Virus record (IMG/VR): IMGVR_UViG_3300043409_000785 | Location: 1 to 64,000 of that record | Direction: 5' to 3' (one strand) | Length of the DNA: 64,000 nucleotides | Origin: a virus | Shown: in pieces, positions 1,487 through 50,706 of the stretch | Layout of the letters: the number at the start of each line of letters is the position of its first letter | Position numbering within the stretch: position 1 is the first letter of the stretch | Notes under the pieces: model-generated | Told to the model about the DNA's origin: nothing | What the model saw: the letters and a program-made list of their open reading frames with translations, nothing else | Databases searched by the model: none | Position numbers and translations under genes: made by a program

Positions 1487-1508
1487 TTAAATCCTCTGTT
1501 GATTGATA

Positions 1509-1546
1509 ACCGTAGCATTCTACAGAAATCTTTGCTAACATGTCAT
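1509..1546 (-). promoter_or_regulatory. Candidate sigma70-type late promoter
   Basis: Read on the minus strand: -35 ATGACA (1541-1546, five of six to consensus), an 18-base spacer and -10 TAGAAT (1517-1522, five of six). It directs transcription into 1262-1486. N4 late genes are read by host sigma70 polymerase, which fits. Inferred from sequence only. Confidence 0.5.
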
Positions 1547-1612
1547 CACGTTTTGCGACGTAGCCAGGCCAGTGGAAGGTGCTCCAACATCCACAGTCAG
1601 AGAAGTCTCCTC

Positions 1613-1813
1613 CTAGCTTTGATCTGACAGCAGTTCCCAGACCTGCTTTATCAAAACTGGTTTCCTTTTGTCTTGTACTTCAAACTTATCTCTAGGACAC
1701 CAAGTAGTTCTATAGTATTTTTGGAATAGAACTACTTCAAAGATATGTCGGGTATCGGGAGCTTCTGTAGAAATATTATCTGGAATAGTTTGAGAAAACA
1801 TCTGGAAAATCAT
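1613..1813 (-). CDS. Hypothetical protein (doubtful)
   Basis: 66 codons on the minus strand with a charged, non-repetitive sequence ('RTTWCPRDKFEVQDKRKP'). No convincing ribosome binding site precedes the ATG at 1813 and I recognise no family. It lies upstream of the late promoter in the presumed terminal region. It may be chance; listed because nothing else occupies this stretch. Confidence 0.25.
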   Translation of the reverse strand: MIFQMFSQTIPDNISTEAPDTRHIFEVVLFQKYYRTTWCPRDKFEVQDKRKPVLIKQVWELLSDQS

Positions 1814-1818
1814 TCTGC

Positions 1819-1895
1819 AAATTTTTGGGTTTGAAATTATTTTGGTAGTGAGGTGACATTGCAGTGCGGATATGAATTTTCTAAATTTTTGGGTT
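1819..1895. repeat. Direct repeat of a 13-mer near presumed genome end
   Basis: AAATTTTTGGGTT occurs at 1819-1831 and again at 1883-1895, 64 bases apart, with no gene between. Such a repeat in the divergent, gene-free stretch could belong to the terminal-repeat or packaging region; this is inference. Confidence 0.5.
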
Positions 1896-1924
1896 CATGG
1901 AAATGTTCATAGTGACTTGCCATT

Positions 1925-1975
1925 ACAGTATCCACACCCACACCACACCCCGAACCACAACCACCCCCCCGGTCA
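1925..1975 (+). other. A/C-only tract in early leader region
   Basis: About fifty bases almost free of G, made of CCACACC-type units and ending in seven C in a row, directly before a motif copy (1981-1990) and the first early promoter. No gene seen. Unpaired A/C-rich leaders can be single-strand or protein-binding sites; nothing more can be said from sequence. Confidence 0.45.
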
Positions 1976-2008
1976 TATTCTCCTTGGTTCCACTGCATAC
2001 CCACCCTT

Positions 2009-2028
2009 GTTGCTACGCAACTCGTGAG
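2009..2028 (+). promoter_or_regulatory. Virion-RNAP-type hairpin promoter a
   Basis: Five-base stem GTTGC/GCAAC with loop TAC (2014-2016), then TCG and TGAG. On the template strand the loop is C(GTA)G, the same closed GNA-type triloop layout known from N4 virion polymerase promoters. It lies 33 bases before the gene at 2062. Confidence 0.75.
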
Positions 2029-2061
2029 GCAATGTCGCCTTGTTTTCTATTGGAGGCCGCT

Positions 2062-2256
2062 ATGCGCCCATTGGTTATCTACGTTACGTTCCGTCATGCT
2101 GAATCTCAGCAACTGACTGAAGAGTTCACGCATAACTCACTGCAAGCAGTGAAGTCTGTACTGGACTCGGGTAACTACTACCTCGACCATTGCCTGGTCA
2201 ACGGTGTGTTGTTCTCAGATCGTGAGTTCAACAAGCTGTGCTCGGCACTGATCTAA
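2062..2256 (+). CDS. Early hypothetical protein, 64 aa
   Basis: First gene of the early block. The ATG at 2062 is chosen because TGGAGG lies five bases upstream; a longer frame from 1897 would run through the A/C tract and the promoter hairpin. The protein begins 'MRPLVIYVTFRHAES' and has a mixed alpha/beta look with no membrane segment. Unknown function; small early proteins at this position in N4-like phages are host-takeover candidates. Followed by a UUCG terminator hairpin, making a one-gene unit with promoter a. Confidence 0.7.
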   Translation: MRPLVIYVTFRHAESQQLTEEFTHNSLQAVKSVLDSGNYYLDHCLVNGVLFSDREFNKLCSALI

Positions 2257-2260
2257 CTAT

Positions 2261-2278
2261 AAGACCCTTCGGGGTCTT
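2261..2278 (+). terminator. UUCG hairpin after early gene 1
   Basis: Seven-base stem AAGACCC/GGGTCTT around TTCG, four bases after the stop. The downstream run is AT-rich rather than pure T. Confidence 0.65.
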
Positions 2279-2320
2279 ATTAAATTCCTTACACCCAATA
2301 CGGATACCTAAGACAGATAG

Positions 2321-2340
2321 GTAGCTACGCTACTCATGAG
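2321..2340 (+). promoter_or_regulatory. Virion-RNAP-type hairpin promoter b
   Basis: GTAGC-TAC-GCTAC (2321-2333) followed by TCA and TGAG. Same layout as the other seven early hairpins; 30 bases before the ATG at 2371. Confidence 0.75.
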
Positions 2341-2370
2341 TAGTTATCAATCAACCAACTGGAGTTCATC

Positions 2371-2493
2371 ATGATCCGCTTCGCATTCAACGTCGTTACC
2401 CTTATCGAGAACATCACTTGCCTCCTTGCACATCGTGCCAAGGAACAGCTCAAGCTCCTTGAGCTGAAACAGCAGCTTCGCAATCATCGCTAA
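2371..2493 (+). CDS. Early 40-aa protein
   Basis: Forty codons from ATG 2371 to TAA 2491, with GGAG seven bases upstream. The N-terminal half is hydrophobic ('FAFNVVTLIENITCLLAH'), the C-terminal half is a charged helix rich in Lys, Gln and Leu ('KEQLKLLELKQQLRNHR'), suggesting an amphipathic coiled-coil or membrane-edge peptide. It has its own promoter (2321) and terminator (2503), which argues that it is expressed. Function unknown. Confidence 0.65.
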   Translation: MIRFAFNVVTLIENITCLLAHRAKEQLKLLELKQQLRNHR

Positions 2494-2502
2494 GCACCAA
2501 CC

Positions 2503-2529
2503 AGACCTCTTCGGAGGTCTATTTCTTTT
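2503..2529 (+). terminator. UUCG terminator after 2371-2493
   Basis: AGACCTC/GAGGTCT stem (2503-2509 with 2514-2520), TTCG loop, then ATTTCTTTTC. A good intrinsic terminator. Confidence 0.75.
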
Positions 2530-2532
2530 CTT

Positions 2533-2552
2533 GGTTCTACGAACCTATTGAG
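2533..2552 (+). promoter_or_regulatory. Virion-RNAP-type hairpin promoter h
   Basis: GGTTC-TAC-GAACC (2533-2545) then TAT and TGAG. Here the left stem is built from a copy of the dispersed motif (TTTTCTTGGTTC, 2526-2537). The expected 5' end of the RNA then folds into GAGCAA-TC-TTGCTC. 33 bases before the ATG at 2585. Confidence 0.75.
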
Positions 2553-2584
2553 CAATCTTGCTCTCAATCAAACAGGAGTTAATC

Positions 2585-2902
2585 ATGGCAACAGCACGTA
2601 TGTCTTTGGGTTCAGTCTTTGGCGCAATCGGTCAGACCGCTCAGACTTTGACTGGCACTCTCGGTGCTATCAATGCAGGGGTTGGTATGGCCAACAAGGC
2701 TATCGAGAACATGGCAGCACAGCAAGATGATCGCATCAAAGCTGACAACAAGATGTTCAAGATCACTCTCGCTAACGAGAAATCGCAAGAACTGGCCGAG
2801 TCAACTATGGAAGCAGCTAAGTTTCGCAACAAGTCTGAGGCTCATGCTCAAGCATACGACCAGGCTTACGCACTCATCGCTGCTGCACTCGAAGAGAAGT
2901 AA
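2585..2902 (+). CDS. Early helical protein, 105 aa
   Basis: Start at 2585 has AGGAG six bases upstream; a frame from 2558 exists but overlaps the leader hairpin. The N-terminal ~45 residues are Ala/Gly/Thr-rich ('LGSVFGAIGQTAQTLTGTLG'), the rest is a long charged helix (residues ~50-100) likely to form a coiled coil. Similar short proteins occur in the early regions of podoviruses; role unknown. Monocistronic: promoter h upstream, double-stem terminator downstream. Confidence 0.7.
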   Translation: MATARMSLGSVFGAIGQTAQTLTGTLGAINAGVGMANKAIENMAAQQDDRIKADNKMFKITLANEKSQELAESTMEAAKFRNKSEAHAQAYDQAYALIAAALEEK

Positions 2903-2905
2903 ACC

Positions 2906-2940
2906 TTAACAACCTGGGCTGAGCAATCAGCCCTTGTTAA
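2906..2940 (+). terminator. Two-part hairpin after 2585-2902
   Basis: Inner stem GGGCTG/CAGCCC (2916-2921 with 2928-2933) and outer stem TTAACAA/TTGTTAA (2906-2912 with 2934-2940) separated by a CCT bulge. Confidence 0.65.
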
Positions 2941-3032
2941 ATTCATTACACATAACACAAACACCTAATTCGCAGGCATGGATAGTCTCATCCAAGTATC
3001 TGTCTTCAACTCAAACCAGTTAGATTGGGTTA

Positions 3033-3052
3033 GCAACTACGTTGCTTGTGAG
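3033..3052 (+). promoter_or_regulatory. Virion-RNAP-type hairpin promoter c
   Basis: GCAAC-TAC-GTTGC (3033-3045; an extra A-T pair outside), then TTG and TGAG. The start of the RNA would form GTGAGA-ATGT-TCTCAC (3048-3063). 30 bases before ATG 3082. Confidence 0.75.
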
Positions 3053-3081
3053 AATGTTCTCACTAACCTTTGGAGATTGAT

Positions 3082-3306
3082 ATGGCTACCGTTGATCTGT
3101 TCAACAACATCCCTGATAGGTATGACGAAGAGTTCTTTCCTTACTCTGAGATTGAGTTCACTCAAACAGAAGTCATTGTCAGCTCTATCAATGAGCACGG
3201 CTATGTGACTTATGGGCACAAGACCATCACTTCAGTTAAACATGGTCCTACCATTACTGAAAATCCTTGGCTCTTATGTGATTGGGATGACCTGGATGAG
3301 TTGTAG
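3082..3306 (+). CDS. Early acidic protein, 74 aa
   Basis: ATG 3082 is preferred over 3070 because TGGAG lies six bases upstream of it. The protein is strongly acidic, opening 'MATVDLFNNIPDRYDEEFF' and closing 'LLCDWDDLDEL'. Small acidic early proteins can mimic DNA or bind host polymerases, but no family is recognised, so function is unknown. Own promoter (c). Confidence 0.65.
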   Translation: MATVDLFNNIPDRYDEEFFPYSEIEFTQTEVIVSSINEHGYVTYGHKTITSVKHGPTITENPWLLCDWDDLDEL

Positions 3307-3391
3307 TTCAGTGTACCTGTAACTAACTCTCAACTAACCTTTCCCTAACACTCTCTTCCTCATTTCCTAAACCAACCCAATAACCCAATCA

Positions 3392-3413
3392 AGGACAGGC
3401 TCAATCCTGTCCT
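3392..3413 (+). terminator. Hairpin in the gap after 3082-3306
   Basis: Eight-base stem AGGACAGG/CCTGTCCT around CTCAAT. It ends nine bases before the next possible start. No T run follows, so it may be a processing or attenuation hairpin. Confidence 0.45.
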
Positions 3414-3421
3414 CCAAACTT

Positions 3422-3520
3422 ATGCCTAACTTTGTCATCACCTTTGCCATCATCTACTTCTCGTACATCGGCTACTTGTTCGGTGGTGGTGTGCTTGTCA
3501 TTCCAACTTTTATGCTCTAA
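3422..3520 (+). CDS. Possible 32-aa membrane peptide
   Basis: Thirty-two codons from ATG 3422, almost entirely hydrophobic ('FVITFAIIYFSYIGYLFGGGVLVI'): one transmembrane helix. No good ribosome binding site is present and there is no separate hairpin promoter, so translation is uncertain. It fills an otherwise empty gap before promoter d. Confidence 0.35.
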   Translation: MPNFVITFAIIYFSYIGYLFGGGVLVIPTFML

Positions 3521-3528
3521 CCAAAGAG

Positions 3529-3548
3529 GCAGCTACGCTGCTTCTGAG
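3529..3548 (+). promoter_or_regulatory. Virion-RNAP-type hairpin promoter d
   Basis: GCAGC-TAC-GCTGC (3529-3541), then TTC and TGAG. The RNA start can form GAGACA (3546-3551) / TGTCTC (3566-3571). 43 bases before ATG 3591. Confidence 0.75.
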
Positions 3549-3590
3549 ACATAGCAATCCTGCCGTGTCTCAACCTTTTAGGAGATAGTT

Positions 3591-3929
3591 ATGACTGCTG
3601 AAAAGAAGAAACCTTCCAATCTTGAACTCTTCCGTGCTGAGCGTAATAGGCCACGTCCTTGGCTCGATAAACCAGAACCCAAATCTCGTGTTTGGCTCAA
3701 CATTGGCTATCACAAGCCTGATGGTGAGTACGTTCGCTTGCCTTTTGGCGTGTACATGGACCCTGCTGAAATTGCGAGGTCTGCGCACATGTGGTCTGAC
3801 GACCAGAAGGCACTGCTCAAGGTGTTCATGGATCAAGGCAACGCTCTCGAAGAGGGCACTAGCACTGAGGTTACAGACTTCAATGGCAGCCCGTTGGTTG
3901 CCCAGATTCGCAAGACACTGCCCTACTAA
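3591..3929 (+). CDS. Early protein, paralogue A (112 aa)
   Basis: ATG 3591 follows AGGAGATAGTT. Residues ~33-60 read 'SRVWLNIGYHKPDGEYVRLP' then 'FGV', matching 'FWVNIGYNHD...VQLPFGV' in the protein at 4373-4795; the C-terminal thirds also align ('DQGNALEEG' against 'EQGEALKPG'). So the two are diverged paralogues, probably one beta-sheet domain preceded by a basic N-terminal tail. Function unknown; the family is common in early regions of podoviruses. Promoter d upstream, promoter e directly downstream. Confidence 0.75.
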   Translation: MTAEKKKPSNLELFRAERNRPRPWLDKPEPKSRVWLNIGYHKPDGEYVRLPFGVYMDPAEIARSAHMWSDDQKALLKVFMDQGNALEEGTSTEVTDFNGSPLVAQIRKTLPY

Positions 3930-3937
3930 GCCCAAGA

Positions 3938-3957
3938 GCCTCTACGAGGCTTTTGAG
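3938..3957 (+). promoter_or_regulatory. Virion-RNAP-type hairpin promoter e
   Basis: GCCTC-TAC-GAGGC (3938-3950), then TTT and TGAG. Outer A/G-T pairs lengthen the stem, and a T run follows, so the same hairpin could also terminate the upstream transcript. 31 bases before ATG 3988. Confidence 0.75.
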
Positions 3958-3987
3958 GCTTTTCTCAATCACATTTAGGAGTATTTC

Positions 3988-4269
3988 ATGGCCATTTCCC
4001 CAAATACCACTGCACCCGGCGAATACAGCGACCTTGAGCTGATCTGCATTTTCCACGTCCCAGAAGAAGAAATCCCTCTGCTCAAAGCACAGGGCATGAC
4101 TTCTGCTGAGATCGCTGAGCGTCAACGTCAACGCTTCAAGGATGGCACCTTGGTTGAACCCAAGGTGACGTACAGCAAAGTGTCTTCGCTTCGTGAAGCT
4201 CTTTGCCCTGGTTCGAATGACAGTTCTTCTAGCAATCCAGGCTTTGAGGTCTGGGTTCAGAATCGTTAA
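3988..4269 (+). CDS. Early hypothetical protein, 93 aa
   Basis: AGGAG lies about eight bases before ATG 3988. The protein is acidic in its first half ('EYSDLELICIFHVPEEEIPLL') with a helix 'TSAEIAERQRQRFKDG' that looks like a small helix-turn segment. No known family recognised. One-gene unit between promoters e and f. Confidence 0.65.
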   Translation: MAISPNTTAPGEYSDLELICIFHVPEEEIPLLKAQGMTSAEIAERQRQRFKDGTLVEPKVTYSKVSSLREALCPGSNDSSSSNPGFEVWVQNR

Positions 4270-4275
4270 TACATT

Positions 4276-4295
4276 GCGCCTACGGCGCTTTTGGG
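4276..4295 (+). promoter_or_regulatory. Virion-RNAP-type hairpin promoter f
   Basis: GCGCC-TAC-GGCGC (4276-4288), then TTT and TGGG; the only copy with TGGG instead of TGAG. Its downstream TTTTGG equals that after the N4 P2 hairpin as I recall it. 78 bases before ATG 4373. Confidence 0.7.
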
Positions 4296-4372
4296 TATGG
4301 TTGGTTGGGCAATGGTGCTCAATCAATCTTTTCGTGGGTTTATCCACTTTGTAAGTTCAAGGAGTATTTATC

Positions 4373-4795
4373 ATGCCTATCAACAATCAAGCAGCTGCTC
4401 TCAATTTCGGCATCAACGGTGGTGGCAACATCAACCTGAACAACGGCAAGAGTGATCAGATCCCTGCTGAGTTCTGGGTCAACATCGGCTACAACCACGA
4501 TACTGGCAAGCTCGATGAGCAGGGTCAGCCTGTCATGCTGTTCGTACAGCTCCCGTTCGGTGTTCCTCTGGAAACGCCTGAGACATTGAAGGCCAAGAAG
4601 GTCTTCATGACGCCTGAGAAGCTTGCTTTTCTGGCAATGGTGACTGAGCAGGGTGAGGCACTGAAGCCTGGTGAAACTGCCTTCATTGGTGGCTATGCTG
4701 ACGGTCTGTTGATTCAGCTTCGGCGTGTCAACCATGACAAGCCTGTTGCTGATGTGGGTGCCAAGCCTACTATCAAGTTCGGCATGAGGGCTTAA
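4373..4795 (+). CDS. Early protein, paralogue B (140 aa)
   Basis: Paralogue of 3591-3929, longer by an insert in the loop before the 'QLPFGV' strand and by a C-terminal extension ending 'KPTIKFGMRA'. The N-terminus is Asn/Gly-rich and probably disordered ('FGINGGGNINLNNGKSD'). Translation is supported by AGGAG ten bases before ATG 4373. Function unknown; duplication within the early block suggests selection for two variants. Followed by a TTCG hairpin. Confidence 0.75.
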   Translation: MPINNQAAALNFGINGGGNINLNNGKSDQIPAEFWVNIGYNHDTGKLDEQGQPVMLFVQLPFGVPLETPETLKAKKVFMTPEKLAFLAMVTEQGEALKPGETAFIGGYADGLLIQLRRVNHDKPVADVGAKPTIKFGMRA

Positions 4796-4807
4796 CTTAA
4801 GCACGTT

Positions 4808-4833
4808 GGGAATGGGTCTTCGGACCTGTTCCC
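4808..4833 (+). terminator. TTCG hairpin after paralogue B
   Basis: GGTC-TTCG-GACC core (4815-4826) with a GGGAA/TTCCC outer stem interrupted by a small bulge. Confidence 0.55.
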
Positions 4834-4876
4834 TTCAAACTCAAGTCCAGATAGCTCACAATCCCATTTCAACTTT

Positions 4877-4910
4877 CGATAGTCTAAGTTCAACTTTTTG
4901 AACCCTATCG
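4877..4910 (+). promoter_or_regulatory. Long leader hairpin before 4937 gene
   Basis: CGATAG (4877-4882) pairs with CTATCG (4905-4910) and, inside, GTTCAA (4888-4893) pairs with TTGAAC (4898-4903). No TAC triloop here, so this gene lacks an early-type promoter; the structure may be a leader or a transcript end. Confidence 0.4.
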
Positions 4911-4936
4911 GCTAAAAAACCTAAAGGTCAAGAATC

Positions 4937-5152
4937 ATGACAAAACCACTGAACCAAGAAGAAAAAGAGAGGCTTGCTGGCCTTCGTAAGTTCTATGGCC
5001 ACATGACCGTAGAGACTGCTCGTGCCATGGAAGCACGAGAACAACGCAATGCTAATTTCGTTGGGTCAAGAGACAAGCTTTATGCTGGGCACCTGTTTCG
5101 ACGTGATCAGTACAGCTTCTATGCTGAGCTGATGGCTCGTGAGAACCTATGA
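4937..5152 (+). CDS. Early charged protein, 71 aa
   Basis: Highly charged, helical ('NQEEKERLAGLRKFYGHMTVETARAMEARE'). Its codons 6-9 encode a copy of the dispersed motif (GAACCAAGAA, 4951-4960). Weak AAGG-type ribosome site (AAAGGTCA). No family recognised. It reads from the 4373 unit or from a promoter not seen. Confidence 0.65.
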   Translation: MTKPLNQEEKERLAGLRKFYGHMTVETARAMEAREQRNANFVGSRDKLYAGHLFRRDQYSFYAELMARENL

Positions 5153-5159
5153 TCCCATA

Positions 5160-5179
5160 GCCGCTACGCGGCTGTTGAG
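5160..5179 (+). promoter_or_regulatory. Virion-RNAP-type hairpin promoter g
   Basis: GCCGC-TAC-GCGGC (5160-5172), then TGT and TGAG. The last of the series; no further C-TAC-G hairpin with a five-base stem was found to the right. 85 bases before ATG 5264; the leader can pair AGGCT with AGCCT. Confidence 0.75.
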
Positions 5180-5263
5180 GCTTTTTAGCTTTTAGCCTTT
5201 TTACCATTTGGGGTTTGTTCTGGGTTTGAGCAAACCTTTTATTCATTTTCAAAGAAAGTATTT

Positions 5264-5479
5264 ATGCCAAAGACGCTTACCTATGCTGGCAGTCAGTTTA
5301 CTGCTAACCGCATCAAACATTTGCACTGTGTGGCATTTCAAAAGCAATTCGCTATTGATAACGATTTGAAAGATCGTTTCACGCAGTTGCGTAGGGATTG
5401 GATTTACGCTGCAGAAGATGCTTACTACAAAGACAACGTTTCTATTGATGTGTTTCGCATCATGCTATACGGCTGCTAA
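5264..5479 (+). CDS. Early hypothetical protein, 71 aa
   Basis: Basic, mixed protein ('KTLTYAGSQFTANRIKHLHC', 'RFTQLRRDWIYAAEDAYYKD'). The start at 5264 follows AAAGAAAG. No recognisable domain. Fifteen bases upstream of the SLOG gene, so promoter g probably drives both. Confidence 0.65.
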   Translation: MPKTLTYAGSQFTANRIKHLHCVAFQKQFAIDNDLKDRFTQLRRDWIYAAEDAYYKDNVSIDVFRIMLYGC

Positions 5480-5494
5480 ACCAAGGAAAGAACA

Positions 5495-6034
5495 ATGAAA
5501 CAACTTACATTCGCTGGAATCGGTTCGAGGGAAACACCTGGGCCTATCCTCAATCTCATGACCCAGATTGGCTATGACCTTGCCAAGTCTGGATGGCTGC
5601 TTCGCTCAGGCTTTGCTGATGGAGCTGACAATGCCTTTGCCTACGGTGCTGAACAAGCACAAGGAGCCATGGAGCTTTTCATTCCATGGAAAGGCTTTAA
5701 CAATGCTCCCAACATGGATCAACGATTCATCGTTCCTGAGTTCTCTGACCTGCAAATGAGTATTGCAGCCAAGTGCCATCCTGCCTGGAACCAATGCAGC
5801 CAAGGGGCTAAGAAGCTTCATGCTCGCAATGTCAATCAGGTGCTTGGCAAAAACCTGGATGACCCTTCTGACCTCATCATTTGCTGGACACCCAATGGTT
5901 CTGGCAGTGGTGGAACAGGTCAGGCTATTCGCATTGCCAAGATTGCCCAAGTACCTGTCTTCGATCTTGCTATTCCTGGCAAGTTTGACGAGCTGGTCAA
6001 GTATGTTGAACAACTGGAAAAGAACAATGTCTGA
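5495..6034 (+). CDS. SLOG / DprA-like Rossmann protein
   Basis: 179 residues. 'FAGIGSRETPGP' at residues 6-17 and 'LRSGFADGADNAFAYGA' at 36-52 are the two glycine-rich nucleotide-binding motifs of the SLOG superfamily (DprA, LOG, YspA), and 'LIICWTPNGSGSGGTGQAIRIA' gives the third loop. Such proteins bind nucleotides or NAD-derived ligands; in N4-like phages a gene of this kind often lies before the RNAP genes. Ribosome site is the motif-type AACCAAGGAAAG. Overlaps the next start by eight bases. A role in nucleotide sensing or in blocking NAD-based defence is inference. Confidence 0.8.
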   Translation: MKQLTFAGIGSRETPGPILNLMTQIGYDLAKSGWLLRSGFADGADNAFAYGAEQAQGAMELFIPWKGFNNAPNMDQRFIVPEFSDLQMSIAAKCHPAWNQCSQGAKKLHARNVNQVLGKNLDDPSDLIICWTPNGSGSGGTGQAIRIAKIAQVPVFDLAIPGKFDELVKYVEQLEKNNV

Positions 6035-6362
6035 ACTGCTGAAGAACTTCTACCTGGCTTATGCTGCATGGCTGGATGATGGTACCCAAGATGAAACTGT
6101 CTTCAGCAAAGCAAATGGTTTGTGCTCTAACCTGCGTTGGTACTGTGATTACGTTGAAACCAGCGATGCTGAGTGGTTCTGTGTAAAAGGTGAACTGGTA
6201 GATCAGTTCATTGATGCTGGGTTGAACAAGACATATCCGTTCGACCTTGATGGCTTTGCTTATGAAAAGTCTGGTCAACAATATAAATGTCATCTCAAGC
6301 CTAGACGCATCCAATGGGTGCGTGATCAAGTAGCCAAAATCAAGGAAGAAGCGTCTAGCTAG
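6027..6362 (+). CDS. Hypothetical protein, 111 aa
   Basis: The ATG at 6027 overlaps the SLOG stop, indicating translational coupling; a longer frame upstream would lie wholly inside the SLOG gene. The protein is Trp/Tyr-rich and acidic ('FYLAYAAWLDDGTQDETVFSKANGLCSNLRWYCDY') with a basic C-terminal helix. I know this pattern only as an uncharacterised phage protein. Confidence 0.7.
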   Translation: MSELLKNFYLAYAAWLDDGTQDETVFSKANGLCSNLRWYCDYVETSDAEWFCVKGELVDQFIDAGLNKTYPFDLDGFAYEKSGQQYKCHLKPRRIQWVRDQVAKIKEEASS

Positions 6363-6369
6363 TTCTGTG

Positions 6370-6400
6370 AAGCATTCTGGTATTCATTACTCGAATGCTT
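6370..6400 (+). terminator. Hairpin after 6027-6362
   Basis: AAGCATTC/GAATGCTT, eight perfect pairs around a 15-base loop, nine bases after the stop. No T run. Confidence 0.5.
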
Positions 6401-6449
6401 TGCAGAGAATGTTTAGTTTGTTTTTTGAATAATTAACCTGGAGTACCTT

Positions 6450-6752
6450 ATGACCTTGAATCAATACATCGCTCAAGAACACGTCAAGCGTAAAAACGCT
6501 TACGAACCAATCAAGCCTATCGAATGTGTTGATGGTTTCACCATCAGTGTTCAAGCATCCCGAGTGCATTATTGTGAACCTCGCGAAAAAGATGGGCCAT
6601 ATTTATCTGTTGAATGTGGTTTCCCATCATCCGATGTACCTGAGATGGCTGACTACAAGGATGGTGATGATTACGACACTGATTCGGTTTTTGTCTGCGT
6701 CCCTGTTGAAATTGTGGAAGCAGTCCTGGCAAAGCATGGAGGCATGAAATGA
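6450..6752 (+). CDS. Hypothetical protein, 100 aa
   Basis: Start 6450 has TGGAG nine bases upstream. Short beta strands ('FTISVQASRVHYC', 'YLSVECGFPSS') and a final helix. No family recognised. Its stop overlaps the start of the macro-like gene (ATGA at 6749-6752), so the two are coupled. Confidence 0.65.
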   Translation: MTLNQYIAQEHVKRKNAYEPIKPIECVDGFTISVQASRVHYCEPREKDGPYLSVECGFPSSDVPEMADYKDGDDYDTDSVFVCVPVEIVEAVLAKHGGMK

Positions 6753-7129
6753 CTAAAGTGTTTACGTTCGGCAGCAATGCCGCTGGAATCCACGGTGCTG
6801 GTGCTGCTAAGGAAGCCTACAAGAAGCACGGTGCTCGTTGGAAAGCTGGCTACGGCCATTATGGCAATAGCTTTGCCATCCCTACCAAAAGCATTTATCT
6901 TGAGACGTTAACTCTGGGCACCATCAAGGCTTACGTGGAAGGCTTCAAAGCCTACGCTGCTGACCATCCTGAGTTGACCTTTCAGGTTACTCAAATTGGT
7001 TGTGGATTGGCTGGCTACCAGGACAAGGACATTGCTCCTTTGTTCATTGGTTCCAGTCTCAATTGCCAGTTCGATAGCGCCTGGGAATCGTTTCTCGGTG
7101 CTGAGTTCACCTACTGGGGTCATGTATGA
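6749..7129 (+). CDS. Macro-domain-like protein
   Basis: 126 residues. 'VFTFGSNAAGIHGAGAAKEA' at 4-23 and 'QVTQIGCGLAGYQDKDIAPLF' at ~83-103 match the two ligand-loop motifs of a widespread macro-like family that binds or hydrolyses ADP-ribose-type compounds; 'GNSFAIPTK' is the strand between. Coupled by ATGA overlaps to genes on both sides. Together with the SLOG gene it suggests early handling of NAD-derived signals, which is inference. Confidence 0.7.
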   Translation: MTKVFTFGSNAAGIHGAGAAKEAYKKHGARWKAGYGHYGNSFAIPTKSIYLETLTLGTIKAYVEGFKAYAADHPELTFQVTQIGCGLAGYQDKDIAPLFIGSSLNCQFDSAWESFLGAEFTYWGHV

Positions 7130-7326: not shown

Positions 7327-8145
7327 ATGCAAGACGCAAATAAAATGCAGCATCAAATCATATTGGAAAAACTCTTCGCCAAGAACCAGCTCATAGACAG
7401 ACTGCGCTATGAGTTCTTCCACAACAAGTCTCCAGACTTTGTGGGCTACATGGAAGCAGTGCAGATTGATATGAACTTCGGCCTGGATCTCTTGATCCAG
7501 ATGCAATTGCACAAGCGCTGTAGTCTTCAAGTGCTGTTGGGTACTCTTCGCGGTCACTACGAGACAGCTCAAGAAGTAGCTGATGCCATCCTGAAGTGTG
7601 CTGAGGCTTATCTGGTAGATTTTGATCCTGCTCTGGAAGTCTTCATTGTGAAGTTCCTGGTCAATGCTAACGTTCAGGAAGAGTTGGATCGTTATCAGTA
7701 TCCATTGCCTATGGTGGTAGAGCCTGAAGAGGTAACTAATAACAAAAGCACTGGCTACAAAACTATTCCTGGTTCACTTATCCTCAAGAAGAACCATCAC
7801 AATGACGATATTTGTTTAGACCACATCAACCGAATGAATAAAGTCAAGCTTACTCTTGATGCAGATACTGCCATGATGGTTAAGAACCAATGGAAGGGTC
7901 TGGACAAGATGAAGGATGGGGATACCAAGGAAAAGTTTGAGAAGCGCAAGAAGGCATTTGCGCTTTATGACAAAGTAGCTAAGGACGTGATTGGCCTCTT
8001 AACTCAAGAGGGTAATGAGTTCTATCTAACACATGCCTACGATAAACGTGGCCGTACTTACTGTAAGGGCTACCATGTTAACTACCAAGGTAATCCTTGG
8101 AACAAGGCTGTAATTCAGTTTGCAGATAAAGAATTAATTGACTGA
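7327..8145 (+). CDS. RNAP1, subunit of middle RNA polymerase (N4 gp15-like)
   Basis: 272 residues, close to the N4 RNAP1 length. It is the N-terminal part of a T7-type single-subunit RNA polymerase; the conserved DxxGR element is seen near the C-terminus as 'YDKRGRTYCKGYHVNYQGNPW' (residues ~240-260), which lines the active site near the template. In N4, RNAP1 and RNAP2 assemble into one enzyme that transcribes middle genes. Ribosome site AAAGGAAAC is part of a motif copy (7310-7320). A small membrane-protein gene and a terminator hairpin separate it from RNAP2. Confidence 0.9.
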   Translation: MQDANKMQHQIILEKLFAKNQLIDRLRYEFFHNKSPDFVGYMEAVQIDMNFGLDLLIQMQLHKRCSLQVLLGTLRGHYETAQEVADAILKCAEAYLVDFDPALEVFIVKFLVNANVQEELDRYQYPLPMVVEPEEVTNNKSTGYKTIPGSLILKKNHHNDDICLDHINRMNKVKLTLDADTAMMVKNQWKGLDKMKDGDTKEKFEKRKKAFALYDKVAKDVIGLLTQEGNEFYLTHAYDKRGRTYCKGYHVNYQGNPWNKAVIQFADKELID

Positions 8146-8155
8146 GGAAACAATA

Positions 8156-8362
8156 ATGATCATTCCACTCTGGATCACCACCGCACTTCAATCACTGTAC
8201 TACTTATGGGCAGTTATTGAGGTGTTCACTCTAGCTTGTGTCATCTGGAACAACACCAGTCCACATCTGGAAAAGATTCACTACACAGACATTGGACTTA
8301 AGTACAGTGTGTTGTTTGTCATCGTGTCTGTGTTCTATTTCAGTTACCTCGTAGTGGGTTAA
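8156..8362 (+). CDS. Small membrane protein between RNAP genes, 68 aa
   Basis: ATG 8156 with GAGGAAAC upstream. Two transmembrane helices (residues ~5-32 'LWITTALQSLYYLWAVIEVF' and ~49-66 'YSVLFVIVSVFYFSYLVVG') joined by a short polar loop. No family recognised. N4 RNAP2 is membrane-associated early in infection, so a membrane protein made with it could be an anchor; this is inference. Confidence 0.65.
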   Translation: MIIPLWITTALQSLYYLWAVIEVFTLACVIWNNTSPHLEKIHYTDIGLKYSVLFVIVSVFYFSYLVVG

Positions 8363-8383
8363 TACACTAACTCTCCCCAACTC

Positions 8384-8407
8384 AAGGGCCACTCATGTGG
8401 TCCTTTT
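8384..8407 (+). terminator. Attenuator-like hairpin between RNAP1 and RNAP2
   Basis: AAGGGCCAC (8384-8392) / GTGGTCCTT (8397-8405), nine pairs with a TCAT loop, then TTCATTTG. Placed 29 bases before the RNAP2 start, so it could lower RNAP2 relative to RNAP1. Confidence 0.6.
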
Positions 8408-8435
8408 CATTTGTCAATTTACTTCAGGACGCATT

Positions 8436-9647
8436 ATGCAGAAGTTTCAAACATTCACCGCTCGTCAATATTTGATGATCGACATCGCCAACAACTTTGG
8501 CCTCGACAAAAAGAACTGGGATGACCGTCTTGCTTGGTTCAAAGAGAATGAGCACTGCCTCATGGATCTGGTCAAGCAAGCTGAGACACCAGCTCTGTAC
8601 TACGCAGGTGTCAAAGCCTGGGAAGCTGTGCAGCGTGGTGAGCCTATCGGTTACCTCATCTCACTCGACGCAACTGCGAGTGGTTTTCAGTGCTTAGCTG
8701 CCTTGACGGGTGATCATAGTGCAGCTCAACTGTGCAACGTGGTGGACACTGGCAAACGTGAAGATGCCTACACCGTGGTGTACAACTTCATGATGTCTGT
8801 TTTGGGTGAAGACTCCAAGATTGACCGTGCTGACACCAAACAGGCCATCATGACTGCGCTCTACGGCAGCAAGGCTCAGCCCAAGAAAGTCTTTGGCACT
8901 GGCAAGCTGCTCAAGACCTTTTACGCTGTGATGAATCATTTGGCTCCTGCTGCTTGGAAGCTCAACGAGGCTTTCTTGGCTATGTGGAATCCACAGGCAC
9001 TCATTAACAGCTGGGTACTTCCTGACAACTTCCATGTTCATGTGAAGGTCATGAACCAGGAAGAGGAAACAGTCCATTTTCTGAACAAGCCCTACACCAC
9101 GTTCAGGACGGTCAATGCTCCAAAAGAGGATGGCCGCAGTTTGGGAGCAAATTGCATACATTCGGCTGATGCGCTTATCGTTCGTGAGATTGCAAGACGT
9201 TGTGATCACGATCCTGCTCAGGTTCAGTACCTCTATGAAGTGCTAGAAACCTATTCCGAGCATCCTGCTGAGGAAGACAACATCTCCCTCAAGATGGTGG
9301 AAACCCTCTGGCAGCACTACCTTGATTCAGGCTATCTTTCAGCCCGGATCATGGACTATTTGCATGCCGATACGGTGCATCTGGTGGACCGTGAGGTGGT
9401 CAAGGAACTGCTGGATTCGCTGCCCAAGAAGCCTTTCAAGGTGCTGTCAATTCACGACTGCTGGAGGTGCCTTCCAGCCTACGGTAATGACATTCGCTGG
9501 CAGTACAACAATCAATTGATGTTGATTGCCAAGAGCAACCTGCTGCAGTTCCTGCTGTCCCAGATCATGGGCAAGGAGATCAAGATCACTAAACAAGATC
9601 CTGATCTTTGGAAGAGCATCATGGAATCGAACTACAGCTTGAGCTGA
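8436..9647 (+). CDS. RNAP2, catalytic subunit of middle RNA polymerase (N4 gp16-like)
   Basis: 403 residues, nearly the N4 length. It holds all catalytic motifs missing from RNAP1: motif A 'LISLDATASGFQCLAALTGD' (metal-binding Asp), motif B 'DTKQAIMTALYGSKAQPKK' (catalytic Lys and Tyr-Gly) and motif C 'VLSIHDCWRCLPA' (HD). The start at 8436 is chosen because a GTG at 8397 lies inside the terminator hairpin; the ribosome site is only a weak CAGGAC. Followed by two strong terminators, so it ends this unit. Confidence 0.92.
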   Translation: MQKFQTFTARQYLMIDIANNFGLDKKNWDDRLAWFKENEHCLMDLVKQAETPALYYAGVKAWEAVQRGEPIGYLISLDATASGFQCLAALTGDHSAAQLCNVVDTGKREDAYTVVYNFMMSVLGEDSKIDRADTKQAIMTALYGSKAQPKKVFGTGKLLKTFYAVMNHLAPAAWKLNEAFLAMWNPQALINSWVLPDNFHVHVKVMNQEEETVHFLNKPYTTFRTVNAPKEDGRSLGANCIHSADALIVREIARRCDHDPAQVQYLYEVLETYSEHPAEEDNISLKMVETLWQHYLDSGYLSARIMDYLHADTVHLVDREVVKELLDSLPKKPFKVLSIHDCWRCLPAYGNDIRWQYNNQLMLIAKSNLLQFLLSQIMGKEIKITKQDPDLWKSIMESNYSLS

Positions 9648-37272: not shown

Positions 37273-40200
37273 TTAGTCAAACACAGCATTCACAGTTGGC
37301 AGCAGCATTGGTGCATTGAACAACATTCCTGGTCCAATGGAATTGCCAAGACCACCAGACCATGCTTTAGAGAACAGGTTGTCCGTGATGGGCGTTCCAA
37401 TGGAACCAAACAGATCGGGCTTGGGCATCATTCCTACCACCAGAGCATGCACTGGATTATTACGAATGGTACTTAAGGCAATCTTCACCAGACGAAGCTT
37501 GAAGTTATAGAACCAAAGCATACCAACACTTTCCAGATACCCGCGGCTACGGCCTGGGAGTCTGTCGTAGTTTACAAACTCTTCAGTAATACGTGCCAGA
37601 GCTTCTTTGGAAGTCAATCCTTTGCGTTGTGTCAAATCATCATAAAGGACTGCCTTGGCAATAAAGTCTCCGTAGTTCACTGCTTTTTGCAAGCCTTGGA
37701 ACAGGGCAGTGTCTTTGGTAACCAGAGCATATCGGCCTGCATTACGGATGCTGGTAGGCAGTTTGTCCACCAGTGATTCGATGTACTCATGCAGCTTGCC
37801 ACTGGTCAGTTGAACGTCTTCGCTCGCCACTTCCATATCTGAGATGGATGAGAACTGGCCAGCTTCAATCAAAGGCCAGATCGACATACGACGATAGCTG
37901 TCACGGATAGACTGCAGCTCAGCACTGAGCTTGCGGGTATTGATCACATCACCTTCAGCGGCTCTGAGCAAAGCTTCAACCTTAACTTCCCGACGACGAG
38001 ATTTGGAGTATGAATCTACTTCCAGAGTTTTACGTGGCATTCCTTTAGCAATACTTAGCAAAGGAACACCCCGGCTAATCAACTGATAGACATTACCAAT
38101 CAGATTGGAGATTGGAACAATGATCGACTTCATAACAATCAAAGTCTTGGCACTACCGACCACGTTCTGCAAGATACGTTCACCATTGACCATGTACTGA
38201 TAGGCTTTGTTTCCAAAGACACTGATCGCCAAGTTCTTAACAGCAGCCTCAGTCTCAGGTGACCACCGATGATTACCTGTCCAGAAATCGCCAATAGTAG
38301 CGCCACGATAACCAAGCATATCATTAGCCAGTTCTTTGCGAACCATGAAAGTGCCTTTACCAAACACATCCTCAATGTATTTAATGGTTTCTGGGTTTAA
38401 TAAACGAACTGCATCAGCCAGCACAGGGTCTTTCTTTTGTTCCTTTGGATCAAAGACATTGATGTACTCTGCTTTTTTGCTACTGCTATTTTGCAGATCG
38501 GTTTTGTACATCTTCTTGGCAGCATCTACCAAGGCTTCATTGAAGACTTGAACCTTGGCCTCTTCCACCTGACGACCACGCCATACACCAATCATTTTGG
38601 CAAGGTCTGTGCTTTGGCTCAGACGCTCTAGTTGCTTAGGATCAACAGCCCGTTCAAAGGCCACAATGACACCATCAGCAGAGCGTACTGGCAGCAAAGG
38701 TTCGGTGGTAGCACGTTCATTGCGCAGGTTCTGTGCCAAACGATAAACCAGTTTACGATCAGTGATTCGCCCTGCTGTCATCAGCCCATCGGTAAAGCCA
38801 GTAGCCAGATCAATACCGCCAGCAGTCTGTCGAGCATTCTGCATCGTGCCCTGGTTGTAAGCAGCACGACCTGGAACGTTAGCAAAGTAGTAGCTTCTTG
38901 GTTCACCGCCCACTAGTGAAGAACCTTTATAGCTTTCCACCTTGGTATAACTTTTGCCGATTAGCTTGCTGTATTCAGCGTCAGAAGCTACAACCATAGT
39001 GACATTGCCATCCTGGCTGCTTGGGACAAACCCCTTGAAGTAATTCATACGAGCTGTCAGTGAAGCATTGGCTTTACGCATCTCTTCAGCACGTTGACCA
39101 GTCAAGTAAGCCATCACAAAATCAACACCCTGGGCTTCACTTTGAACCAAGGAAGAAAGACTACTGAGGTTCTCGTTGCTCAAACCATCAATGGCGTAAA
39201 GCGATACCAGCTTGTCCACAGCTTTGATATAGGCTTCATCTGGTTTGGTTCGTTTAGCTTGTTGAGGCTCGTCAAACAGGTTAGCCACAGACTCAGCATT
39301 GCGAAGCAGATTGTTTCCATAACCCTTACCGTTCATGTAGTCAGCCAGTTGCCTGGCTTTCTTTTCTACTTGGTTCCAGTGTTGTGGATCAGCAGTTTTA
39401 AGCTGGGTTTCCACAGTCCGGATAGCCATAGGCAGAGCAGATGGTTTGGTGAATAGTTCACGAATCTCAGCATCCTTCATGCTTTCACGAAGCAATGCAA
39501 TATCGGTTTTGCCCAGACCATGAAACATGGCTGTCATCTCTTCTTTGGTCACAGTACGGCTGAACTGTTCCAGAATAACTCCCGGCAGATCATCCCGGTA
39601 GTGTTGACGATCTTGAGAAACCATAGTCCGAACCAGCTTGTTCTGGTCATAGATTTCAGCATTGGAATCGGTACGTCCCACAATGTCGGCGATGACTTCA
39701 CGCAAGGTACGGAAACCATCCACCTTGTTGATAGTAGAAACAATACCTTGAGCAACAATCTCAGCGTTATCCTCATTAATGATGGCAGAGGTCAGCTCAC
39801 CCAACTTGCCCAATGTTTGTGAGAACTTACCGTACTGTGGGTTTTTCAACGCAGATACAGAAGCTTTGTGAAGTGCTTTTGCACTCTTGTCGATGTAACC
39901 TAGCAGTCTGTTGTTGCGTTTGTTCAAGCGGGTTTCTCGCCAGTCTGCAAAACCTTCTGTCATTCGAGTCAGCAAATCATTGTTCGCCGTACTCATCAAG
40001 TGTTCAGTCAAAGCATCAATGGCAGCTTGAACATTAGGCGCATGTTTGCCTTCACCAGAGAGACGGAGAGAGAGCTTTTCCATCAAGCTGTTACCGGCAT
40101 TTTCAAAAGCACTGTCCAGACTATCCCAGTCCTTGAGTTTGGTTTTGGGCAGTTCCAGCTTGGACAGCACACCACGGAACTTCTCGTTGGTGATAGCCAG

Positions 40201-43200
40201 CCCCATAAATACAGGCAGCAAGGTAGAACGCCCAAGGGCGTCTTTGCCCTCGTAGTAGTTACCCATCACAGCGTTGTACTGCTCATTGGCGTAGTACAAA
40301 GCCGAACCAGCATCGGTATTGCTTGGGTCAATGAAGTCAGCAACCGTCAGTGTTTTGGTAGCCAGCGTAAACAGCTCTTGAGCACGAGCCATTGTGTTGG
40401 GGTCAATCACAGCCTGGGTAGCCAACGTCTGCACAATGGATGTGAATGTAGATTGCTCTATTGGTTCCATTGGGAAGCCATGAGCATTCAAAGTCATGGC
40501 AGCTTCAGTAGCTACTTGAATGGCTGTGGTAGTCACTTTGCCCGTCAACACACCGTCTTTGGTAAGAGGCATCTTTAAGTGGTTAGGGATACGCTTCAAG
40601 AAGTTATCCCGAATACCGCGTAGGCGAAGATCATTCTTGGGTGAAGAATGTGGCAACACCGCAGTAGAAGCAGCTGCCATCGTAGCTGCAATACTAGGCT
40701 GATAACGAGCCAGCAAAGCAGTATTAAAGCGAATGTTGGTGAACATATCACCACCGACTTTAGGAGCACGTTTACCCCACACCAGTTCCTTAATGAACTC
40801 CAGCACCATCTTGGAAATACGAACCAAAGGATTAGCCGTGGTGTTTTTCGTCATGCGGATTAGGGCAGGATTTGACTGGGTGTAGGCCATGAACTCATTG
40901 AGTGCAGATGCCTGAGCCAATGGATTTTTTCCTTGGTTCAAGTGGATCTGGATCACCGAACGAGCATGCAGGTACTGCTGCATCGTTTCAGTGCTCAGAG
41001 CAGGAAGCTCTTCACTCAGTTCCATGAACTGACGCATCAGGATTTCAAGACCCCCCACAGCACCAGCAATATCTGCATTGCCTTTACCCGGCAATGTGCC
41101 ACTGTAGTGGGCATGGATGATACTGAAGGTAGCGGCATGGACCATCTCATGCACCAACGTTTCACCGGTGGCATTGGGAAATATGATGATTTTTTGCCCA
41201 GTCAGGGTCAGACCCTTTTCCAGATTGTTTAAATGCTCTGCTGCAACGCCTAGTTGCTCTGCTTTGGCTCTGATTTGTTCATTGGTTCCAGTGATGAAGG
41301 TCCATCCTTCAAGGGCTTTACTGTTCACCAGTTCGTTGTACATCCACCGCTGCTCTTGTGGGATGTTCATTTGTGAACCAAGGAAAGAAAGATTCTCTTG
41401 GTAGAAGACCTTAGCCCCAGTAGCCATATCGTGGTAACCAGAGTTACTAATGGCTTCAGAAATGTCCTGAGTCTTGCTTAGTTGCTTGGTGACCCTCTCA
41501 CGATGGAACTCTCTGCGCTCGTTTAGAACTTCAATGATTTTTTCATCAGACATGCCTTCAACAGAGATGGTTCCTTGATGCTGGTAAGGTGAGCTGAAGC
41601 CAGCCATCTGGTCAATACCAGCACTAATGTCTTGCATTGCAAGATGGCGAATCTCAACCTCAATGGCTGCATTTTTAAGCTTTTCATTGACCTTCACTAG
41701 CTCTAAACTGAGATCAGTTCTTAACCAAGACAGCTTTTCCCCATCCATTTGATCAACTTTTAAACTCGGACCATAAAATGCTGAAGCAAGCTTCTTAAAC
41801 AGAATGGGCTTGTCAACTGCAATGCGTATTATCTCTCCATCAGTGTCTTGCATGAACACACTGTAAGACTCCGACAAGGCTTTCATGGCATTGCCCATCC
41901 AGGCATCGAAGATGGCCTTATTAGCCTTCTCGGAATACTCACCCAGCTTGTCCAATGGCAGGTTGATACCGTCGAACACTGGGAGCGTACCAACAACATC
42001 ACCATCCCAGTAGAAGTTCATGATCATCTGGCCATCAACCATGCCGATGTTCAGAGCAGCAATACCACCAACACCCAGATCTTTTGGTCCACTAGCCATA
42101 GCTGGAGTTTTAAACTGCCCATCCAAAGATGAACCAAATGCCTTAACGTTTTCCAGTCTATTGGATTGAGAACCGGCAAGGTAGTATTCCATGTTGCCTG
42201 TGTCAATCTTAGGCATCATGTACTTCAGCTTTTCCAAAACCTTCTTTAGCTCATTCTCAGATAGGAAGTCTCCTTCTTGATGGTTAGGGTCTTCCTTTTT
42301 CTTTTTGTCTAGGGCTTTAGCAACCTCAGTCTTAAAAGCATCCTCAAGGAACAGGGTCTGAACCTGGGTGGCTTGGCGAATAAGCTCCATAGAACTCATC
42401 AAGCTTGCACCCATAGTTTGACGAATAGCTGTATCCATTGGTTCAACAAACAGTGTCTTGACATTGCCAGTCAGTGTAGCTTTAGCATTTTCATCTACAG
42501 TGAAGCCAACTGCAGTTTCATGATTCACTGATTCAACTCTTGGGGTGTAAACATCAGACTGACCCAATGAAGTAATACCAGAATCCCTATCCGTTTTAAC
42601 GTAGAAGTTGGTTAGTGCTTCCCAAGCGCCAGTGAACTTGTTGAAGTTCTCTCTTGAACCAAACATGATAGTAGCTTCATCAGCGTTACGATCAGCATAC
42701 TTAGCTGCAGCTACGTCAGACATCTTGGAGTACAGCTCGTCAGTGATGATGCCTACAATCTTGGCAGCAATGCCATACTGACCAGCACCATAGATGGTCA
42801 CAGTAACTGGACTCTTGGCGGCACCACGTTTGATCTTCAGTTCACCTTTCTCATTGAAAGTGACATTGCCTTCAAACAGCAGTTCCAGCAGGTTCAACAT
42901 GTGCTGAACTTGGTTACTGGCTTGCGTATCTCCAGGAGCACTCGTAGCGTCATACACTGCTTTGCTCTCCTCAATCAATGTAGAGGCAGTATTAGCAACA
43001 GTGCCATAGGTATCTACGTCGTCAGCAACAAACTGATCCTGTGCAGTCCACCCCTCTTTACCGGGGTAGTAGCCAACCTTACGCATCATTTGAAGCTCAT
43101 GCACTGTGAAGGCTCCAGTGCTATGCAGAATCATGGCACCACCGGGACCATTCTGCATACCGTCAGCTTCACCATACAAAGTTGTGGTGAAGTTCTTACG

Positions 43201-50652: not shown

Positions 50653-50706
50653 TCTGGTTTCCAAGATATAAATTTGAGCTAGGTTGTAGTGTAACTCTAC
50701 ATAGAC

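Follow-up and report, generated by a model that had tools for sequence, protein, structure and literature searches.

The promoter of the phage N4 virion RNA polymerase (vRNAP) serves as the textbook example of promoter recognition in the form of a DNA hairpin. Promoters of this type are inverted repeats of 5–7 bp around a 3-nt loop, and their use by vRNAP depends on gyrase and SSB. For extrusion of the N4 hairpins, a C-G closing pair and, in the template-strand loop, a 5' G (-10) and a 3' A (-12) are needed, and the N4 rule further calls for a purine at template position -11 (PMC4496689). About four polymerase molecules are injected in N4 (PMC12633501). For the Pseudomonas phages LUZ7, LIT1 and PEV2, vRNAP hairpins were predicted on the model of the central-purine contact in N4, three per genome (PMC3715699); like these, the phage described here is N4-like and carries predicted vRNAP hairpins. 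A pyrimidine at -11 is not mentioned in the literature searched, coverage of which was partial, and an earlier description is possible.

The window was a stretch of 64,000 nucleotides from a viral contig of the IMG/VR collection. A first-pass annotation had placed eight hairpin promoters at 2009–5179, each a five-base stem around TAC followed by TGAG (one TGGG), and all eight were recovered in this form and place. The early region contains the following features.

2009–2028, + strand: predicted hairpin promoter 1, GTTGC-TAC-GCAAC TCGT GAG; predicted +1 at 2026; first gene 2062–2256
2261–2278, + strand: terminator-like stem AAGACCC-TTCG-GGGTCTT separating the first two early genes, read directly in the sequence
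2321–2340, + strand: predicted hairpin promoter 2, GTAGC-TAC-GCTAC TCAT GAG; predicted +1 at 2338; gene 2371–2493
2503–2520, + strand: terminator-like stem AGACCTC-TTCG-GAGGTCT, then a T-rich tract, from a terminator scan
2533–2552, + strand: predicted hairpin promoter 3, GGTTC-TAC-GAACC TATT GAG; predicted +1 at 2550; 5' of the gp1 homologue
2585–2902, + strand: N4 gp1 homologue (phrog_5020), 105 aa
3033–3052, + strand: predicted hairpin promoter 4, GCAAC-TAC-GTTGC TTGT GAG; predicted +1 at 3050; gene 3082–3306, perhaps also 3422–3520
3529–3548, + strand: predicted hairpin promoter 5, GCAGC-TAC-GCTGC TTCT GAG; predicted +1 at 3546; 5' of the gp2 paralogue
3591–3929, + strand: N4 gp2 homologue (phrog_4099), 112 aa, paralogue of 4373–4795
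3938–3957, + strand: predicted hairpin promoter 6, GCCTC-TAC-GAGGC TTTT GAG; predicted +1 at 3955; gene 3988–4269
4276–4295, + strand: predicted hairpin promoter 7, GCGCC-TAC-GGCGC TTTT GGG; predicted +1 at 4293; 5' of the gp2 homologue
4373–4795, + strand: N4 gp2 homologue (phrog_4099), 140 aa
5160–5179, + strand: predicted hairpin promoter 8, GCCGC-TAC-GCGGC TGTT GAG; predicted +1 at 5177; last before RNAPII; first gene 5264–5479
7327–8145, + strand: probable RNAPII subunit 1 (RNAP1), from its position before RNAP2 and regional DNA similarity to schitoviral RNAP1/RNAP2 genes; no Pfam match
8397–9647, + strand: RNAPII subunit 2 (RNAP2; PF00940, 8e-15)

The eight elements are perfect 5-bp hairpins of the form G-NNN-C / TAC / G-NNN-C followed by TNNT-G(A/G)G, all on the + strand between 2009 and 5179. 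In the whole 73,646-base record, pattern GNNNCTACGNNNCTNNTGRG gave 8 forward and 0 reverse matches and its reversed-pattern control gave 0; the motif is absent from the rest of the 73.6-kb contig. Unvarying in 8/8 copies are the outer G-C pair, the closing C-G pair, the loop TAC, T-4, T-1, G+1 and G+3. For statistics, 3,000 dinucleotide shuffles of 1901–5300 were used. The most C-G-closed 5-bp hairpins with a common loop was 2 in the shuffles, compared with 8 observed, and 1 when the TNNTG context was added; a chance origin was rejected on this basis. Other 3.4-kb stretches of the window hold at most 1 such hairpin. All 40 stem cells are paired, and 3/5 pairs vary with both sides changing (covariation score 0.87 vs 0.16 shuffled, 0/500). 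The covariation was lost when the partner arm was slid. The stem bases had been described as freely varying but always paired; the pairing holds throughout, but free variation is confined to the three inner pairs, the outermost G-C and the closing C-G pairs being invariant.

With N4 P1–P3 the elements share a 5-bp stem, a 3-nt loop, a 4-nt spacer and an RNA +1 G, and they agree in place, at the left genome end and 5' of gp1 and gp2. The C-G closure and, in the template loop, the -10 G and the -12 A are present in 8/8 hairpins, as is the predicted +1, a G 4 nt beyond the stem base (template C). Hairpin 1 equals N4 P1 (GTTGC-TTC-GCAAC) in 13 bases except the central loop base. Hairpins 3 and 7 stand directly 5' of the gp1 and gp2 homologues, the genes after P1 and P2 in N4, so that promoter–gene orthology is seen at both; RNAPII lies further downstream. 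Differences from N4 are found in the spacer (TNNT vs TTTT/TTAT), in the predicted transcript starts (mostly GAG vs GG) and in number (eight vs three). About one gene per promoter had been proposed, which fits roughly for promoters 1–6; promoters 7 and 8 each probably drive more than one, 8 probably reading on towards RNAPII.

We consider the eight hairpins to be early promoters for the phage's own vRNAP, with a probability of about 0.92 as judged from the sequence. The vRNAP type is supported by the gp1/gp2 placement, by the vRNAP homology given below and by the recovery of N4 P1–P3 with the same hairpin scan. GC-rich stems in intergenic gaps could also be intrinsic transcription terminators between the small genes: promoters 5–8 start 6–8 nt past a stop codon, and the terminator scan flags 2/8 (3938 and 4276). 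However, their T-tracts are poor (2–5 T in 8 nt), and terminators require none of the invariant loop TAC, T-4, T-1 and G+1; on T-content and invariant bases this function was rejected as highly improbable. Separate UUCG-loop terminator-like stems are present at 2261 and 2503, and no early gene precedes the first hairpin.

It is hardly more credible that the hairpins are RNA leader elements controlling stability or translation in mRNA of another polymerase. Start codons do follow the hairpins at 50–105 nt, and structure is seen in the leaders, but no sigma-70-like site was found upstream or elsewhere on the + strand between 1500 and 6800, and the invariant bases match N4 DNA-promoter positions. 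Moreover, the leader structures start past the hairpin, at the predicted +1. Family-wide, 20/57 predicted transcripts have a 5' stem starting exactly at the predicted +1, with 2.1 expected and a maximum of 8 in 1,000 shuffles; the count drops to 10 one base past +1 and to 1–5 at offsets of 2–7 nt. A looser test, with closure allowed up to 40 nt, gave weak enrichment, the tighter test being position-specific.

For the polymerase, two features were placed.

37273–50664, - strand: giant virion RNA polymerase, 4463 aa, from homology to N4 vRNAP and domain matches
41512–44910, - strand: vRNAP catalytic core, equivalent to N4 mini-vRNAP, residues 1919–3051, from alignment to N4 vRNAP

By homology, the contig encodes an N4-type vRNAP. 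The core matched N4 vRNAP (gp50) over residues 1919–3050 with E = 1.6e-148, and the vRNAP-specific plug and other vRNAP domains were matched (PF21624, PF21769, PF21867, PF21894). The N4 catalytic residues D559, R666, K670, Y678 and D951 are all kept in the alignment, as are the initiation residues K437 and R440. A single-protein scan of IMG/VR with this core gave no match, and the alignment scan gave 74 loci.

The recognition residues were compared with those of N4 vRNAP, as the first-pass annotation had suggested. The tryptophan that stacks on -11, W129 in N4, is retained here as W2028; R119, which reads -11, aligns with Q2018, and R904, which reads -8, with K2852. Further changes are D901 to G and K849/K850 to Q/E. 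Around 119 the sequence is rich in insertions and the alignments do not agree: a first alignment gave T at this position, and a local alignment, anchored on the motif that comes next, gave Q, which was preferred. For K114, which contacts -10G in N4, no counterpart was placed; an insertion adjoins the site and two alignments disagree.

On the promoter side, the template-strand loop is 5'-GTA-3'. Position -11 is T in 8/8 hairpins, as had been observed, against the N4 purine rule, and the second base-specific N4 contact is also lost: -8, a G in N4, can be any base here and is G in 4/8 (G,G,T,A,G,T,C,G in promoters 1–8). Because the polymerase is changed at the matching residues, we infer that the polymerase–promoter pair has been re-specified, with Q2018 and K2852 as the putative cause of the altered specificity.

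The gp1 and gp2 homologues of relatives are preceded by hairpins with loops TCC, TTC, TGC or TAC, and -11 takes all four bases across family members, in promoters of these same genes (C in seven sampled relatives, T in three). TGC-loop promoters of the architecture seen here were found in Pseudomonas phage Meara and the uncultivated L074, L086, L103, L106, L115 and L141. They share a pyrimidine at -11 and, in most, the position 5' of gp1 or gp2 homologues, but they carry C at -11 and, except in L141, G at -8, and number 1–2 copies. TAC-loop promoters with the loop and spacing seen here lie 5' of gp1/gp2 homologues in the uncultivated schitoviruses L119 (G030), L107 (G023) and L203, in 2–3 copies each; vRNAP residues 119/904 are R/E in L119 and V/K in L107, and L203 is a fragment without vRNAP. 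The consensus had been called new. It departs from that of N4, but TAC loops are shared by three or more further uncultivated schitoviruses, and TGC loops (-11C) are found in seven phages. The excess over the three N4 copies extends to the sampled relatives, which have 1–4, eight being the highest count found. Pattern GTNGCTACGCNACTNNTGAG gave no match in IMG/VR.

Alternatively, the hairpins could be vRNAP promoters without re-specification, read solely by their shape, by +1 and by the sheared -10G/-12A pair, with any base tolerated at -11 and T there by chance or mutation bias. The conserved W2028, the variation of -8 within one genome and the combination of -11T with R at 119 in L119 all speak for this. 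We nevertheless regard it as unlikely: T is unvarying at -11 in 8/8 copies with scrambled inner stems and is therefore probably under selection, and nearly all relatives with multiple promoters keep a single base at -11 throughout.

For re-specification, the correlation between residues and bases was analysed. R or K at 119 is paired with -11G in 18/20 phages, compared with 1/12 with other -11 bases (Fisher p = 7e-6, over phages; for eight phages the residue at 119 was manually assigned or excluded). Besides L119, the exceptions are the sister -11G phages Arace01 and L122, which have L. A phylogenetic test gave 3 supported independent contrasts only, the sign test not being significant, and the 119/-11 link is therefore not claimed as proven; it fits the sequences and is phylogenetically unproven. 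The link between residue 904 and -8G is weak (p = 0.07 unfiltered), and its two apparent counterexamples are probably stray hairpins.

In the proposed re-specified system, the left genome end would enter the cell and negative supercoiling would extrude the small hairpins. The vRNAP would then bind the template-strand hairpin (5' arm, GTA loop, 3' arm), and RNA would start at the G 4 nt past the stem. The N4 extrusion determinants (C-G closure, -10 G, -12 A) are kept and the specificity positions -11 and -8 changed. How eight early promoters would be served by about four injected polymerases, the N4 copy number, is a question raised by this arrangement.

The "central purine plus -8G" rule was derived from one phage and repeated for relatives, and it is broken at -11 in every copy here. 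Tentatively, and at a little under even odds, schitoviral vRNAPs may follow a changeable code, in which -11 and -8 were swapped in evolution with residues 119 and 904 and the extrusion determinants stayed fixed. Under such a code this phage would stand at the extreme, changed at both positions and with its promoters amplified to eight, and its polymerase–promoter pair would show no cross-reaction with N4. A recognition code could be tested directly on two cultured sister Pseudomonas phages, CL (loop TCC, R119, -11G) and Meara (loop TGC, Q119, -11C), and orthogonal polymerases for single-stranded templates are a possible yield. The family is a natural system for comparing polymerase and promoter specificity, in which natural variation separates the bases for hairpin extrusion from those for protein recognition.

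The virus record comprises 73,646 bases, of which 64,000 lie in the window, and its gene order is N4-like (Schitoviridae). Eight hairpins, proposed as virion RNA polymerase (vRNAP) promoters in the first-pass annotation, were aligned without gaps and gave the pattern G-N-N-N-C T-A-C G-N-N-N-C T-N-N-T G-[A/G]-G. Across the whole record, this pattern had eight forward matches and no reverse match, and among 3,000 shuffles of the hairpin region that preserved dinucleotides, at most two hairpins of the same form had one common loop. Pairing held at every stem position in each copy, with the three inner pairs varying on both sides, which is covariation within one genome. Alignment, pattern count, shuffles and covariation thus bear out the eight-hairpin observation.

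Features in the window and in L203, a fragment of an uncultivated schitovirus
2009-5179, + strand: eight hairpins, starting at 2009, 2321, 2533, 3033, 3529, 3938, 4276 and 5160 (promoters 1-8)
2026-2060, 2550-2584, 3050-3081, 3546-3590: leaders with a short stem-loop at the predicted +1
37273-50664, minus strand: vRNAP, 4463 aa, matching N4 gp50
L203 12226-12674: TAC promoter (GCAGC stem), gp1 homologue downstream

On the template strand, each window hairpin consists of a 5'-arm, the loop 5'-GTA-3' and a 3'-arm, corresponding in N4 numbering to -10G, -11T and -12A with closing pair -9C with -13G, and lies four bases from +1. N4 promoters share this geometry. Applied to the N4 genome, the identical scan returned GTTGC-TTC-GCAAC at 90, GAAGC-TCC-GCTTC at 559 and GCTGC-TCC-GCAGC at 4548, which fit its three known promoters; hairpin 1 of the window and the N4 P1 hairpin are identical apart from their central loop base. 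Extrusion in N4 depends on the closing pair together with G at the 5' and A at the 3' end of the loop, and the polymerase reads -11 (A/G), -10G, -8G and +1C (PMC4496689). The extrusion set was present in 8/8 window hairpins, and -10G and +1C were retained. Position -11 was T in 8/8, and -8 was G,G,T,A,G,T,C,G in hairpins 1-8. DNA GNA triloops with C-G closing are unusually stable whatever the central base, so -11 could change without extrusion cost. Judged by sequence, we regard the hairpins as N4-type vRNAP promoters in variant form, departing from two base-recognition criteria and with predicted function.

Promoters 1-6 each precede one small gene by 32-45 nt, with clear ribosome-binding sites, and some early units are set apart by terminator-like UUCG stems. 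The predicted +1 of promoter 3 is 35 nt upstream of the ATG of a homologue of N4 gp1 (phrog_5020), and two paralogous gp2 homologues (phrog_4099) follow promoters 5 and 7; in N4, P1 precedes gp1 and P2 gp2. Promoter 8 is the final one before RNAPII (7327-9647). No sigma-70-like sites were found on the + strand from 1500 to 6800. The gp2 (RNAPII cofactor) copies (3591-3929 and 4373-4795) have diverged, each with its own hairpin promoter. The early region also encodes a DprA-like protein (5495-6034; phrog_768, 8.5e-59), as in many schitoviruses.

Residues 1919-3050 of the window vRNAP matched the crystallised N4 mini-vRNAP (catalytic core) at 1.6e-148, and Pfam returned the vRNAP plug along with three further vRNAP domains. 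Core identity to 19 aligned phages was 24-34%, at most about 34%. Catalytic and initiation residues of N4 vRNAP were invariant in the alignment, and promoter-reading W129 was retained as W2028. R119 aligned with Q2018, R904 with K2852, D901 with G2849 and K849/K850 with Q/E; no counterpart of K114 could be placed in the alignment. With architecture, gene targets and a dedicated polymerase all kept, the proposed reading as vRNAP promoters stands. About 900 extra residues (about 935-1919) separate the N-terminal domain from the polymerase core, because of which the protein exceeds the 2842-3820 aa of reference genomes (PMC10654107).

Hairpins were sought in the early regions of about 55 schitoviruses, named and uncultivated. 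Most had G at -11 (+ strand loop TCC); N4 P1, ort11, Fifi287 and G048 had A, Meara and six uncultivated phages had C, and the window, G030 (L119), G023 (L107) and L203 had T. The same gene carried different loops in different phages: before the gp2 homologue, N4 and CL have TCC, Meara has TGC, Fifi287 has TTC, and G030, G023 and the window have TAC, and all four loops were represented upstream of gp1 homologues. The L203 promoter shares its site with window promoter 3 but has a different stem. The window phage had eight copies versus 1-4 elsewhere, the latter being lower bounds because mainly perfect 5-bp stems were counted; over a dozen divergent phages gave no hairpin in the scan. Loops TCT and TAT, lacking the template 5'G at -10, occurred in L153 (G006; 11925 and 10989) and L162 (G017; 16045), which suggests that the N4 loop rule is broken in other ways too.

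Residue 119 (N4 mini-vRNAP numbering) was compared with -11 wherever the sites could be read. R or K was found in 18/20 phages with -11G versus 1/12 with other bases, the closest contrast being the sisters CL (R119, -11G) and Meara (Q119, -11C). Exceptions were phage L119 (R with -11T) and the sisters Arace01 and L122 (L with -11G). The vRNAP tree held only three supported independent contrasts, a number at which a sign test cannot reach significance. The four phages with non-uniform -8G, counted with two stray hits set aside, all lacked R904 (window K, L119 E, L141 A, ort11 T); unfiltered, the test of residue 904 against -8 gave p = 0.07, and R904 is also missing from Meara and the PB119 group, which retain -8G. 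Given the few independent contrasts, the exceptions and this p value, co-evolution of promoter bases and vRNAP residues is plausible but unproven.

Predicted window transcripts were more stable at their 5' ends than shuffled ones, with summed energies of -53 versus -26 kcal/mol (0/500 shuffles). Among 57 family promoters, 20 had at least 4 Watson-Crick pairs starting exactly at the predicted +1 (expected 2.1, maximum 8 in shuffles); the count dropped to 10 at an offset of one base and to 1-5 beyond. Independently of the hairpin, these stems support the assigned +1; we know of no earlier description of them. In the window and in other schitoviruses alike, predicted early transcripts frequently open with a short stem-loop that starts at +1 itself. 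Such stem-loops may protect the 5' ends of early mRNA.
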